Below are positions 58,703 to 64,000 of a DNA stretch of 64,000 nucleotides, one piece after another. The position numbers were made by a program, and so were the translations under genes. Numbering within the stretch: the stretch's first letter is position 1; each line of letters opens with the position of its first letter. The notes under the pieces were generated by a model that saw only the letters and a list, made by a program, of their open reading frames with translations, did not search any database and was not told the DNA's origin. Origin of the DNA: Candidatus Amulumruptor caecigallinarius (GTDB taxonomy: Bacteria > Bacteroidota > Bacteroidia > Bacteroidales > Muribaculaceae); the NCBI GenBank assembly GCA_944321825.1, contig CALUMU010000001.1, positions 62,001-126,000 of the forward strand, given 5' to 3'.

Positions 58703-60928
58703 TTATTTTGAAAATACTTTAAGGTATTTTTCTCCTGCTTTAATAATGAATAATCCATTACCAATAAAAATATCTCGTGGAATACCGCTGTATATTACGC
58801 ATCCATCTGCTCTAATTATTTCGATATTCTTTGCTGTCAAATTAGAACCTATCAAATAGCCATTGTCTATATGAAGATTGGATTTGAGGTCATCGAAAAT
58901 TGTTTCTGATGATGCGTCGTCAGGTATAACAAATGTTTTGACTACACGCACCGCAGGGTTGTAATTAATGTTGCCTTCTTGTGTTGCTCGTATAGTTACT
59001 TTTCCAGGTGCTAAACAATCGATAAAAGTTCTATTCCCGGACTTATACTCTGAAACATTTCCCGATATGATGTAATCAATTTCAAGACCAGAATCAGTGG
59101 AAGCTAAAAGTTCTATTTGATCTCCTGATGAAACATTGTTAAAATCTTGCTCCCAAGTTATTGTCTGATTTATTTTGGTGATGGTAAGCATACCCTTAAT
59201 ATAATTAAAGGAATAGTTTGTGGCATCTGCGTTGCCGATGTTAATCTCATACTCGCCACAGTCTGACAGCAATGTCGCTTCTGTGCTTATAATCGGGGCT
59301 GATTTTAAATTTTGCGCCGATTCATTGTTTACAAAACCGCTTATTGTATATGTCAACTCAGGATTTTCTGTTTTATAAGGTCTTTCCTTGTCATCTGCTT
59401 TTATTGTCAGAGTCCTTTTGCCAATGGATAGGTTTCCATTAACATAATTGATGGTATAGTTGGGCGATTCTGCTCCAGAGATAGCAATAGAATAATTCCC
59501 CACTTCGCTATTTTTTACGGCGTTGGTTTGCAATGTCGGTTGCACAGTCAAACAATTTTTATCATCTCCATTAACAAAGCCAGACGCTTTGTAATCTAAG
59601 GGAGGGTTATCTTCAAAATATAGCTTAGATGCATCGTTAGCTTTTAAGATAAGATTCTTTGGGAGGATGCTTAAAATGCCATTGTTAATTCTTGAAATCA
59701 TGTAATTTCTTGCCTCAAAATCAGTTGCAGAAACAATATAATCTCCAACTGTCGATGCAGAATTAGCATCAGTTACAAACTTTGGGACTGATACCCAATA
59801 GGGAGAAGTTTCTTCATTTTTTAAGCCTTCATATGTCAGAGAAAATTGGGGGTTGTTATCTCCATAGATTTTTTCCGTATTGTTGATTGACGCATTTAAA
59901 GCGGCTTTTGTAATAATAAGGCATGCATCATCATATTCAAACTTATAGTTAGGACTTTCTGCGTCTTTAAGTGCAATAGGATATGTCCCGACATTAGATT
60001 TGCGAGATGCTTGAATCTCATATGAAGCTGCTTTTGTCAAAACTTCTTCATTTTCACCATTTTTAAATCCACTGTAATGTATTTCTGGTATTGGATTATC
60101 TTCCCCATATTCTCGCGTAAGGTCAGGGCAAGATACAAGTATTGGTGCAGCTGTGATACTTAAAGTGCCTGGTCGATATCTTTTAATCTCATATCCATCA
60201 ACATTGCCATCACAACTAACTTTTATGGGATATGAGCCAATGCTGGAATATCTGGTAGCTTCACACTCATAACTTGCATGATACCCCTCTGCTAAAAGTG
60301 ATTCGTCACCAGGAATTACCCCATTAAATTTAGTTTCAAAATTAGGATTTTCATCCCCATATTCCTTGTCGCATGATATAGCTTCGGGTTCCAAAAAAGC
60401 TAATTCGCGAGTAAGTCTGCAGTCAGAGATGGATAAGGTGTATGATTTCTGTGTTTGCATACTTAACAGGAACATTACATAAGATTCTTCGAATATAGTG
60501 AATGAGTATTCTGAAGCAAAGGGTTTATTGGAACCTCTTGTCTCGTTTATTAAGTAATCATCGGAAGTATCAATTATATCATCGGTGGAAACGATTATTC
60601 GAAATATTTTCGTAAATCCACTGCCATAATCTGGATCCGGTCCCCCATTATAGTTGAAGGAACATTTATATTTACCGGGGTTTAATTTCATCGTTTGAGT
60701 TATGGCGCAGGTATAATAGCCCCAACTGGCGCTACTACCACCAGCCTTGAGATAACATACGCCATCCTCAACCCAAACTTTTGAGAAATTTGGATTATCT
60801 GATGTCCTTGTCTCCCAGCCATCTAATCCCTCAGTAAAGTCTCCATTAGAAAGGAGGTTTTCGTTTTTATTATAACCAAATGCATATATGGTCCAAATGG
60901 ATAATAAAGTAAATATGATTGCTCTCAT
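58703..60928 (-). CDS. Secreted MBG-repeat protein with T9SS-like C terminus
   Basis: The 741-residue protein has a signal peptide (MRAIIFTLLSIWTIYAFGYN) and an N-terminal carbohydrate-binding-like domain (NLLSNGDFTEGLDGWETRTSDNPNF). From about residue 185 there are five tandem repeats with the MBG pattern: Y-G-D-x-N-P, then GLKNEE/GFVNGD, VGxY, S-P-N-Y, G-x-L-T-I. The C-terminal 70 residues (LTAKNIEIIRADGCVIYSG, GLFIIKAGEKYLKVF) resemble a type A sorting domain of the type IX secretion system. Probably a surface adhesin. Low GC relative to neighbours suggests transfer. Confidence 0.8.
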   Translation of the reverse strand: MRAIIFTLLSIWTIYAFGYNKNENLLSNGDFTEGLDGWETRTSDNPNFSKVWVEDGVCYLKAGGSSASWGYYTCAITQTMKLNPGKYKCSFNYNGGPDPDYGSGFTKIFRIIVSTDDIIDTSDDYLINETRGSNKPFASEYSFTIFEESYVMFLLSMQTQKSYTLSISDCRLTRELAFLEPEAISCDKEYGDENPNFETKFNGVIPGDESLLAEGYHASYECEATRYSSIGSYPIKVSCDGNVDGYEIKRYRPGTLSITAAPILVSCPDLTREYGEDNPIPEIHYSGFKNGENEEVLTKAASYEIQASRKSNVGTYPIALKDAESPNYKFEYDDACLIITKAALNASINNTEKIYGDNNPQFSLTYEGLKNEETSPYWVSVPKFVTDANSASTVGDYIVSATDFEARNYMISRINNGILSILPKNLILKANDASKLYFEDNPPLDYKASGFVNGDDKNCLTVQPTLQTNAVKNSEVGNYSIAISGAESPNYTINYVNGNLSIGKRTLTIKADDKERPYKTENPELTYTISGFVNNESAQNLKSAPIISTEATLLSDCGEYEINIGNADATNYSFNYIKGMLTITKINQTITWEQDFNNVSSGDQIELLASTDSGLEIDYIISGNVSEYKSGNRTFIDCLAPGKVTIRATQEGNINYNPAVRVVKTFVIPDDASSETIFDDLKSNLHIDNGYLIGSNLTAKNIEIIRADGCVIYSGIPRDIFIGNGLFIIKAGEKYLKVFSK

Positions 60929-60938
60929 AAGATGTGTG

Positions 60939-61174
60939 TTAAATAATTGTAATGGATTTTATATCGTGTGATGATATGAGAATTTCTTCTCCGTCCTCTG
61001 TAATCATGCCAACGATGCTACGCTGAGGACAATCAGCTTGAACTGCTTTTATGAAATTTCTTACAGTAACGTCTTTTTTGTGCCATTGACATATTCAATG
61101 GTCACGGTCTTTCCATGGAATAGCTTGATAATCACCTCATCATTTTCATTTTCTAAAATTTCAAGATTGGTCAT
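60939..61174 (-). pseudogene. Small ORF with a one-base frameshift in an A6 run
   Basis: From the ATG at 61174 the frame reads MTNLEILENENDEVIIKLFH and GKTVTIEYVNGTKK, then shifts out at the A6 run (plus-strand T 61074-61079). One added A continues as DVTVRNFIKAVQADCPQRSI and on to a stop at 60941-60939, giving about 78 residues. It lies directly after a structured RNA leader and 10 bp before the MBG gene. Real frameshift or consensus error cannot be told. No family recognised. Confidence 0.6.
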
Positions 61175-61217
61175 ATTATCATGTGTTTTGTAACCAAGCA
61201 GCCCGACTTGGAATGAA

Positions 61218-61252
61218 TAAAAAAGAGGCGTGGGCTGTTATGCCACGCCTCT
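61218..61252 (-). terminator. Intrinsic terminator at the 3' end of the structured RNA
   Basis: A 10-bp perfect stem (61243-61252 with 61224-61233) with a 9-nt loop, followed on the minus strand by T6 (61224-61219). It lies 44 nt before the ATG of the small ORF at 61174. Confidence 0.85.
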
Positions 61253-61440
61253 ATGAGTAGGTGCTTAGGAATACCTTTATGCGAAGATGTGGAAATAACA
61301 GCTCCACGCCTGTATGGACGTGGAGACAGTCATGACATTCTCTTGCGCATCGAGTATAGGTTCCTAAGCTTTACTCATACAAGCAGAAGACATAACGTCT
61401 CTTGTGTTAACTATGTAGTGAACGGGCCGCTGCCCGTACA
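61219..61440 (-). ncRNA. Structured RNA: riboswitch/attenuator-like leader, or 6S-like RNA
   Basis: A minus-strand TAACTTTG (61452-61445) is followed by a folded region of about 220 nt. The 5' end has a 6-bp hairpin (61422-61427/61432-61437). A long rod is closed by 61372-61379 with 61252-61259 and 61361-61369 with 61263-61271. An apical hairpin is formed by 61319-61325 and 61302-61308. The segment 61311-61295 is complementary, with one bulged base, to 61241-61226, that is, to the terminator loop and 3' arm. Terminator and antiterminator are therefore mutually exclusive. This is the logic of a riboswitch or attenuator. A rod with a central bubble also fits a 6S RNA. Confidence 0.55.
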
Positions 61441-61444
61441 ATCG

Positions 61445-61452
61445 CAAAGTTA
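61445..61452 (-). promoter_or_regulatory. -7 element (TAACTTTG) of the structured RNA
   Basis: TAACTTTG on the minus strand, immediately upstream of the first hairpin of the RNA. The -33 TTTG is not visible in the AT-rich upstream DNA. Confidence 0.55.
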
Positions 61453-61579: not shown

Positions 61580-62361
61580 ATGATGAAGATGAGAAAGATG
61601 CTGCTGGGGGCGACGTTGATGGTCGCTGCGGCTGTGGGCGGTGAGGAATATGTGAGCATATCGGGGCGCGTGACAGACTATCGGGGCGAGCCGGTGGATT
61701 CGTGTGCGGTATGTGTGTCAAATCCTGATTTCTCCACGGCGTATATGACGATGACGGACGCTGCGGGTTCTACAGGATAGACAGCGTGGCGCGAGGGGCG
61801 TATGCCAATGTCTGCGCTATGCGCCCGGAGGAGTATCCGCGCCAGAAAGCTGTCAAACCCGAAGACATGAAATTGGAGTTTTGGGCATGGAACGTCATAG
61901 CCGACAGGGACTTGACATTGAACCTGCGTTATGACAAATTAGAACTGTACGGCACTACTGCGTTCTGCGAATACGGCGGACGGCCTGAAATGTTCATCTA
62001 CACCCGTCCGATGAGCGTCACGAAAGTGCTGAGCTATGAGGACTATATGGATAAGGCTGTATGGGAAAAACATAGCAATGTGACCGTGGAGCCTGAATAT
62101 ATGGAGTTTGAGGTGTATGTGGACGGGAAGAAGTACGAGATTATCTCAGTGCAGCATCTGTCGTTGCCCAATACTAACGGCAATCCTGTCAACGACGACT
62201 GCTATCTGATTCAAGTGCCGATGCCTGAGGATGTGCATTACCGCAAGGATGGCAATTATGAGGTGAGAGTGGTGGGGCATAACACCCAATATGACGAATG
62301 GGGCGAGAGCGTCTGCTATCTGCGTCCCTTTGCCTACCGCTGGGGCGAAGCAAGGAAATAA
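61580..62361 (+). pseudogene. Secreted carboxypeptidase-regulatory-like protein with a frameshift near 61768
   Basis: The first frame gives a signal peptide (MMKMRKMLLGATLMVAAAVG) and ISGRVTDYRGEPVDSCAVCVS, the start of a carboxypeptidase regulatory-like beta domain, and ends at 61780. One added T near 61768 would continue as DAAGFYRIDSVARGAYANVC into the second frame, open to 62361 (about 260 residues in total, with a C-terminal domain of unknown function ending LRPFAYRWGEARK). It looks like a single gene broken by one base, real or by sequencing error. Confidence 0.7.
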
Positions 62362-62386: not shown

Positions 62387-63361
62387 TTAAGAGGCGAACA
62401 CTTTATTTCGTATCAAAATCCTGAAATAGGGACATTTCCCATTGATGGCTAAATCACGGGCGTCGTTTCCTTTCCTGAATCTCACAATCTCAAATTGATG
62501 AGGGTTGTATTTGTGAAGGAATGTTATCGGAACGCCCATCACTCCAGGATAATCCTTGGGTATGTCTTGTGTGCGGTTCACGTTTATACCTTCGTAGTTG
62601 TCGTATTTGGGATAATACATCTCATTTCCGGCATAGACCTTGCTTAAATTTATGAACTCTCTCCGTGAGGGCGTTTCTAAATTGGTCAGCCAAAGGCAGT
62701 TGTTGGGGGAGATTATTTTATTGCCCATTTCATCGGTCCTCGTCTCTGTCCCATACAAACTGTATGATTCGGGAACGATGAAACCTGAGATGCCGCGTCC
62801 TAAATTCACTCCAAGCCATGCTTTGTTTTGCTGAATGAGCTTGAATATGTCTTTGTATGTGATGGCATTGATATTGCCGATGATAAGAAAACTTTTATGA
62901 TGACTGGTAATCACAGATACAAATTCCCTGAATAATGAAAAAGGAGGGTTCGTGACTATAATGTCGGATTGCTGTAGAAGGGCGATACATTCTTGGCTGC
63001 GAAAATCACCGTCACCTTTGAAAAAAACGATATGGGGGGGGGCTGATGGGTCTGCCTCGTAGCCGTCAAAAACGGTATAATACCCTTTTCCGCATGTGTA
63101 TGGCTGGAATAAATCGTATGTCGACGGCCTGTAGCATGACGCAATAAGGCGCTTCAGGCCGAGACGCTTGAAATTGTCATGGAAGTATTTGTAAAAGTTG
63201 CTGATATAAGGGTCGTCGCAGTTGCAATAGACGGTTTTCCCGTTAAAATCCGATTCGTAATGCACCAGTTCTCTCTCGATGTCGTCAAGCAAGGTGTAGA
63301 ACTCATCGCTTTTTGCCCCCTTGGCTTTATGCAGCAGGGCGTTAGAAGCATTTCTTGCCAT
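62387..63361 (-). CDS. EcoRI-family adenine-specific DNA methyltransferase with an internal C9 tract
   Basis: This 324-residue protein aligns from memory along its length with M.EcoRI: the start MARNASNALLHKAKGAKSDE, VYCNCDDPYISNFYKYF, the motif IV NPPFSLF, LGVNLGRGISGFIVPE, ISPNNCLWLTNLE and GKCPYFRILIRNK. It should methylate adenine in GAATTC and so protect host DNA. The gene contains nine consecutive C (plus-strand G 63034-63042) coding SAPP just before the GDGDFRS segment. In the sequence given the frame is intact. It lies 4 bp after the endonuclease gene. Confidence 0.92.
   Translation of the reverse strand: MARNASNALLHKAKGAKSDEFYTLLDDIERELVHYESDFNGKTVYCNCDDPYISNFYKYFHDNFKRLGLKRLIASCYRPSTYDLFQPYTCGKGYYTVFDGYEADPSAPPHIVFFKGDGDFRSQECIALLQQSDIIVTNPPFSLFREFVSVITSHHKSFLIIGNINAITYKDIFKLIQQNKAWLGVNLGRGISGFIVPESYSLYGTETRTDEMGNKIISPNNCLWLTNLETPSRREFINLSKVYAGNEMYYPKYDNYEGINVNRTQDIPKDYPGVMGVPITFLHKYNPHQFEIVRFRKGNDARDLAINGKCPYFRILIRNKVFAS
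63034..63042. repeat. G9/C9 homopolymer inside the methyltransferase gene
   Basis: Nine consecutive G on the plus strand within the minus-strand coding sequence. Slippage would truncate the protein before the NPPF catalytic motif. Confidence 0.9.
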
Positions 63362-63365
63362 AGTC

Positions 63366-64000
63366 TTACTCTTGCTTGTGGGTTGTTAACTGCTTAAAGA
63401 GCCGACTCCCCAACGCCGTAAGTGCGGAAGTGGCGATATCCAGCATTATCTTCATCATTTCGTTGACGCTCCAATCCTCGCCGTCCCCTTGTGTGTAAAT
63501 GGATGCAGCTTGCAGCATTATTGTTTTGTCGTCATGATGTACGAATTTGTTAAGGCAGAGGTTTGTGTTTATGGGCATTCCATAATTTGCCGCCGTCAGT
63601 CTGTCAAGCCGGTTTAACATCCCTGAATCATATTCGAGGACTACCAGCCTCCCATCAGGACGCATGACTTTAATGGTTTCTGTAAGGAAATTAGAACCTG
63701 CGAGGAATAAGACGTATGGGAAATAAGACTCCCCAAGCATATAGTTGGCAATTTCAGAAATGTTTTTGTGTGACCGTTCTATGGCATTTCCAGCCGCCAT
63801 TAAATCCTGATTGTTGTTTTTGCCGACAAGAATCCCGGATTTGATGTTTTCAATATCCCGGCCTTGGTATTTGGCTTCTGATACTAAAATGACATGCCAT
63901 ACACCCATGTCGTCTTTGACTTCAATCAATCCTCCATCTGGAATAATGCTTGAATTGGGAACAAATAATGTCTGCCCCAAGCTGGAGTCGATTCTTTTTA
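63366..64000 (-). CDS. EcoRI-type restriction endonuclease (cut by window end)
   Basis: The frame is open to the last base of the window and gives at least 210 residues of a protein that matches R.EcoRI from memory: LFVPNSSIIPDGGLIEVKDD, SEAKYQGRDIENIKSGILVG, DLMAAGNAIERSHKNISEIA, LDRLTAANYGMPIN and LQAASIYTQGDG. The catalytic P-D-x(n)-E-x-K residues are in PDGG and SEAKYQG. The N-terminal part (about 65 residues) is beyond the window. It cleaves GAATTC in the family. The TTG at 63980 is not the real start. Gene order R then M is that of the EcoRI plasmid. Confidence 0.93.
   Translation of the reverse strand, partial: KRIDSSLGQTLFVPNSSIIPDGGLIEVKDDMGVWHVILVSEAKYQGRDIENIKSGILVGKNNNQDLMAAGNAIERSHKNISEIANYMLGESYFPYVLFLAGSNFLTETIKVMRPDGRLVVLEYDSGMLNRLDRLTAANYGMPINTNLCLNKFVHHDDKTIMLQAASIYTQGDGEDWSVNEMMKIMLDIATSALTALGSRLFKQLTTHKQE

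Follow-up and report, generated by a model that had tools for sequence, protein, structure and literature searches.

Structured mRNA leaders in which a closing helix and a terminator exclude each other, and in which long-range contacts connect the loops, are represented by the SAM-I and HMP-PP 'thiS' RNA riboswitches, the aptamer of the latter being embedded in the terminator (PMC6478431). T-box leaders likewise combine a terminator with a competing fold and with contacts between distant parts. In B. thetaiotaomicron, dRNA-seq analysis assigned a 5′ UTR of more than 100 nt to 13.5% of mRNAs, and a riboswitch was predicted in only about 2% of these long 5′ UTRs (PMC7366714). Rod-like RNAs with their own promoter include 6S RNA and 6S-Flavo, and terminal inverted repeats, end hairpins, sharp ends and presence at many loci are features of MITEs and IS200-IS605 derivatives.

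The element described here was found in a 64,000-nucleotide stretch of DNA from Candidatus Amulumruptor caecigallinarius (the window). It resembles each of these systems in the features listed, but differs from the riboswitches in having no Rfam class and in preceding more than 80 gene families instead of the genes of one pathway, and from T-box leaders in that neither the window nor six diverse homologues gave an Rfam T-box match and that the downstream genes are diverse, mostly for secreted proteins. Unlike 6S RNA and 6S-Flavo, it is multi-copy, lies ahead of genes and has no match to their models in the window's genome; unlike MITEs and IS200-IS605 derivatives, it is fixed in orientation and position before genes, and covaries at the RNA level with G-U pairs. 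Supplementary lists aside, the study of Bacteroides long 5′ UTRs (PMC7366714) does not name this class, and PMC10994844 and PMC8040213 do not describe it; the supplementary tables might list it.

Layout of the leader element in the window

The element and its surroundings comprise the following features.

61445-61452, minus strand: Bacteroidetes −7 promoter box TAACTTTG (TAnnTTTG)
61422-61437, minus strand: H0, predicted variable 5′ hairpin just 3′ of the putative start site
61401-61219, minus strand: leader element, folded RNA of about 175 bases ahead of a small gene
61395-61401, minus strand: P0 5′ strand GAGACGU, starting at the first base of the apparently exchanged module; pairs with 61231-61225
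61381-61403, minus strand: hairpin H1, loop GUUAU, exclusive with P0
61252-61379, minus strand: rod, P1-P4
61379-61373/61258-61252, minus strand: rod helix P1, with compensatory changes
61369-61361/61271-61263, minus strand: rod helix P2, with compensatory changes
61350-61341/61287-61279, minus strand: rod helix P3, with compensatory changes
61331-61318/61309-61297, minus strand: rod helix P4 (apical)
61225-61250, minus strand: terminator-like hairpin T (61250-61243/61233-61226), the 3′ arm doubling as P0 3′ strand (61231-61225)
61219-61224, minus strand: U tract UUUUUU, directly 3′ of T
61194-61211, minus strand: hairpin D, loop UCGGGCUG, in kissing contact with the T loop
61061-61174, minus strand: first downstream reading frame, 37 aa, ATG at 61174
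58703-60928, minus strand: downstream MBG-repeat surface protein gene, 741 aa (Pfam MBG_2, E 8e-81)

With the −7 box at 61452-61445, transcription is expected to start near 61438. H0 is kept in position across homologues; its sequence varies, and the columns of this region covary. The H1 loop has two alternative partners, 61334-61330 (contact PK-A) and 61243-61240 (contact P0b), and GGGCUG of D (61204-61199) is complementary to CAGCCC of the T loop (61237-61232), which makes up the kissing contact. The 222-nt strand has a fold energy of −87.4 kcal/mol, as compared with −53.9 ± 4.6 kcal/mol for shuffled sequences (z −7.2), and this level was reached by none of 200 shuffles.

Behind the leader, the 37-aa frame resembles the 78-aa product of locus L042, and since the similarity resumes in another frame (about 60950-61063, minus strand) after an A6 run (plus strand, a run of T at about 61075-61080), the small gene appears to be either frameshifted in the window copy or read by slippage. 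On the other side, an EcoRI-type adenine methyltransferase (62387-63361, minus strand; Pfam E 5.5e-119) and a neighbouring frame that by eye is like EcoRI endonuclease (63366-63998, minus strand) form an apparent restriction-modification pair, and a divergently oriented gene (61580-62361, plus strand), possibly coding for a secreted protein, is split into frames of 66 aa and 191 aa, suggesting a frameshift.

Distribution of the element and its status in Rfam

A DNA search of 60 relatives yielded 13 places, 11 of which were aligned for a covariance model. Using this model, with E-values that are rough due to short calibration, matches were identified in 149 of the 198 genomes of the same family (Muribaculaceae), in 44 of the 295 Bacteroidales genomes, a survey that the first-pass annotation had proposed as a check, and in three of the 247 genomes of a phylum sample, one being the window's own genome. 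Four copies are present in the latter and up to 11 in one other genome. Outside the order there is a single clear homologue (L342), which is laid out in the same way, with P0 and D. An exact-pattern scan of named genomes identified the element in Bacteroides, Phocaeicola, Parabacteroides, Prevotella, Xylanibacter, Alistipes, Butyricimonas and others. The scan gave 80 loci, a few of them truncated by contig ends, and the model also matched nearly every one. Plasmids of B. uniformis, B. finegoldii and Parabacteroides distasonis also carry the element, as do, by pattern match, ten IMG/VR (phage-like) contigs. A truncated core (model positions 44-137) without both ends is located in Bacteroides rodentium (L202, 3606-3695). 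Presence of the element in E. coli alongside blaMUN-1 was considered and rejected, as the E. coli collection gave no match.

The element is an uncatalogued structured RNA, absent from Rfam. Against Rfam 15, the window had no match at gathering level and no credible one even at E up to 10; at E up to 1 the six diverse homologues had none either, in agreement with the first-pass annotation, which had recognised no known riboswitch class.

Position between promoter and gene

In 169 of the 183 homologues, the 90 nt upstream of the core contain the sequence TAnnTTTG, mostly 41-48 nt before the core, against a background of 4% of 90-nt windows. In 159 of the 183, a frame of 60 aa or more opens with ATG 30-80 nt downstream, as compared with 8 of 179 on the mirrored side taken as control, and in the general layout the start codon lies about 50 nt 3′ of T. 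Both positions bear out the earlier description of this RNA as a leader, and on this basis the element is judged to be a cis-acting mRNA leader rather than a free-standing RNA.

The downstream products, of which 126 out of 175 are signal-peptide- or lipoprotein-like by a crude rule, belong to 83 sequence families (largest, n = 34) with diverse Pfam names. Ribosomal protein genes, which would mark a ribosomal protein leader, were not seen among the products listed (25 of 66 Pfam families). Within the largest downstream gene family, close homologues carry the leader and distant ones were found without it. On plasmid pBUN1 of B. uniformis, the element (L326, 4043-4214) is flanked by mobV and by blaMUN-1, which codes for an extended-spectrum beta-lactamase; it lies directly ahead of blaMUN-1, with the start codon 51 nt past the element. 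D is missing in a few members, such as the leader before a DUF4433 gene on a plasmid of Parabacteroides distasonis (L327, 4048-4217), where the spacer is about 20 nt. Tandem leaders, each before its own gene, were observed at two loci (L193, 1420-1593 and 2869-3039; L159, 1439-1609 and 2254-2424).

Covariation of helices and loop contacts

Among 91 diverse homologues, 86.1% of cells were paired, as compared with 77.5% after shuffling and less than 46% with the partners slid, and both the covariation score and the percentage paired of the rod exceeded all 500 shuffles, although the shuffle and swap controls used throughout ignore kinship and thus overstate significance for related homologues. 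Strong covariation was detected in P1-P3, with many independent double changes on the tree. The contact PK-A between the H1 loop and the 5′ strand of the apical helix was paired in 95.4% of cells, with 14 double-change cells against 2.6 after shuffling and a swap z of −8.2; the corresponding z was −6.3 for P0b, between the H1 loop and the T loop, and −9.1 for the kissing contact between the T and D loops. Compensating variants were found for the loops, GUUUUGC going with the partner ACAAAGC instead of GCAUAGU, and for the T and D loops, UUGGCUC with GAGCCAA instead of CAGUUCC with GGAACUG. The helices P1-P3, the loop contacts, the T-D kissing contact and P0 (see below) are all supported by covariation.

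Two mutually exclusive folds

P0 is formed between the first seven bases of the core, GAAGCGU, and the last seven, ACGCUUC. In the window it consists of 61401-61395 with 61231-61225, and is extended by P0b (61393-61390 with 61243-61240). All seven positions are paired in 201 of the 229 homologues and 98.0% of cells are paired; three of the seven pairs show changes on both sides (partner-swap z, 8.3), and the compensatory types include GAGGCGU:ACGCCUC, GGAGCGU:ACGCUCC and GAAACGU:ACGUUUC. Because H1 loses its 5′ strand and T its 3′ arm when P0 forms, P0 is mutually exclusive with H1 plus T. C61228 is conserved though it stands opposite A across T in most homologues, a conservation attributable to its pairing with G in P0. 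This conserved A-C mismatch (61248/61228), with only 40% paired at this place, makes T weak in many homologues.

A U tract (at least five T in eight) directly after the T/P0 strand was found in 71% of homologues and in 14% of control windows, a five-fold enrichment, and a clear tract is absent in 29%. Since T is often weak and this 29% is without a clear U tract, control may be translational in some members of the class. In terms of nested fold energies, which leave out pseudoknots and protein factors, P0 and T are separated by at most 5 kcal/mol in 152 of the 180 homologues, with P0 favoured in 133 of the 180. In the window copy T is lower by 4.2 kcal/mol; with an A-C mismatch in P0 and a strong T, this copy should lean to termination. 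A hairpin with a U tract, its stem weaker in many members, is conserved between promoter and gene as in attenuators, and a conserved leader domain is combined with exclusive folds of the expression-platform type as in riboswitches, albeit with no match to a known aptamer family in Rfam. Judged from these alternative pairings, P0 and T constitute a terminator-with-antiterminator architecture.

A terminator in exclusive competition with an antiterminator had been proposed in the first-pass annotation, and both the terminator-like hairpin, T followed by six U in the window, and its competition with another helix were recovered; the competitor that shows compensatory changes, however, is P0 and not the helix then named, between 61311-61295 and 61241-61226. 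This helix exists as described, with 15 standard pairs and one bulged base (A61303), its first segment being the 3′ strand of the apical hairpin (61325-61318/61309-61302) and its second the loop and 3′ arm of T, the hairpin before the six U. In the 91 homologues 86.8% of its cells are paired, and its double-change cells exceed the shuffled level (27 versus 14.1; covariation score, 0.155 versus 0.136). The pairs changed on both sides, however, number five, equal to the shuffled mean of 4.9, little compensatory change for pairs in which the annotation itself had called for it, and exchange of partners between homologues caused no weakening (−7.46 kcal/mol for real and −7.67 kcal/mol for swapped partners). 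Part of the complementarity is automatic, because both hairpins share a CGUGG/CCACG stem. Invasion of the T loop and 3′ arm by the apical 3′ strand as the antiterminator is thus very improbable, and the helix was rejected as the main switch, its compensatory change being weak and P0 being better supported, though it may form as an intermediate.

Near-identical cores ahead of unrelated genes

A total of 180 core pairs are at least 92% identical despite unrelated downstream genes, and a stricter set of 110 pairs (86 elements) is at least 94% identical with both unrelated genes and unrelated upstream flanks. Within the latter set, identity is about 95-100% at either end of the module and is down to near background a few bases beyond P0. 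The cores of L064 and L066 match perfectly throughout; their promoters and genes differ. The near-identical cores are mostly located in different genomes, and concerted evolution within one genome was rejected, as only one of the 113 same-genome pairs from different gene families reached 0.9 identity. The sharp ends coincide with 7-nt inverted repeats, GAAGCGT/ACGCTTC, as in MITEs, but insertion is not independent of gene and orientation, the place being fixed from promoter to start codon.

Discussion

The cis-acting mRNA leader probably functions as a two-state attenuator. Two alternatives exist for the 5′ strand of the core, GAAGCGU...UAUGC: it can pair with the 3′-end GGCAU...ACGCUUC to form P0, or it can form H1, in which case the 3′ strand forms T. 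In the H1-plus-T state, RNA polymerase is predicted to halt at the U tract and the genes to be off; upon formation of P0, T would be disrupted and the polymerase would read through, and D would then pair, close to the start codon, with the T-loop segment. The choice of the H1 loop between docking on the apical helix (PK-A) and joining P0 (P0b) is the likely point of signal action, for which a metabolite, a protein, an RNA or transcription speed are candidates. With 83 families, the downstream genes give no hint of a ligand.

A leader acting on translation or mRNA stability instead of termination, in which P0 and D shape access to the start codon or shield the 5′ end and the U-rich stretch simply belongs to the spacer, is a reading of lower but appreciable probability. 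It agrees with the covariation of D and the kissing contact next to the start codon, with the weakness of T in many members and with the energetic preference for P0, but the enriched U tract directly after T, and the resemblance of T plus U6 in the window to a good terminator, argue for termination. The long rod, the own promoter and the terminator-like end are also what a discrete, trans-acting small RNA of 6S or other type would have. This reading is extremely improbable, since genomes have several copies, almost all of which precede a reading frame at a constant spacing. 6S identity in particular was rejected: the window's genome gave no match to RF00013 or 6S-Flavo (RF01685), the control genomes being matched by these models, and with four copies here and up to 11 elsewhere the element is unlike a free-standing 6S gene with one or two copies.

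The sharply bounded identity of cores before unrelated genes, with L064 and L066 as the extreme case, raises the possibility of a mobile or recombining module, a P0-to-P0 unit with 7-bp inverted-repeat ends spreading by its own or helper machinery or by repeated gene conversion, with regulation being secondary. This is unlikely, considering that place and orientation are fixed between promoter and start codon, that covariation links the T loop to the D hairpin at the same locus, and that selection could also give whole-unit exchange. The spread might be due either to a specific mechanism or to gene conversion kept whole by selection; selection may act in this way because P0-P3 join both halves of the module. 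It is conceivable, albeit tentative, that the leader is a self-contained exchangeable RNA switch, a P0-bounded module of 165-175 nt transferred whole from gene to unrelated gene in Bacteroidales and their plasmids and mobilizable elements, so that genes mostly for secreted and envelope proteins, and some for resistance, come to respond to a single shared signal.

The presence of the same RNA before hundreds of unrelated, mostly secreted-protein genes of gut Bacteroidales suggests a widespread gene switch. If so, a major order of human gut bacteria would have a common RNA switch, missing from Rfam, before many of its accessory genes, and one signal, which can now be sought directly, would unite in a regulon secreted proteins and lipoproteins that are mostly uncharacterised, together with cargo such as blaMUN-1. 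For a regulatory RNA, evolution by such sharply delimited exchange of a module between genes would also be unusual.
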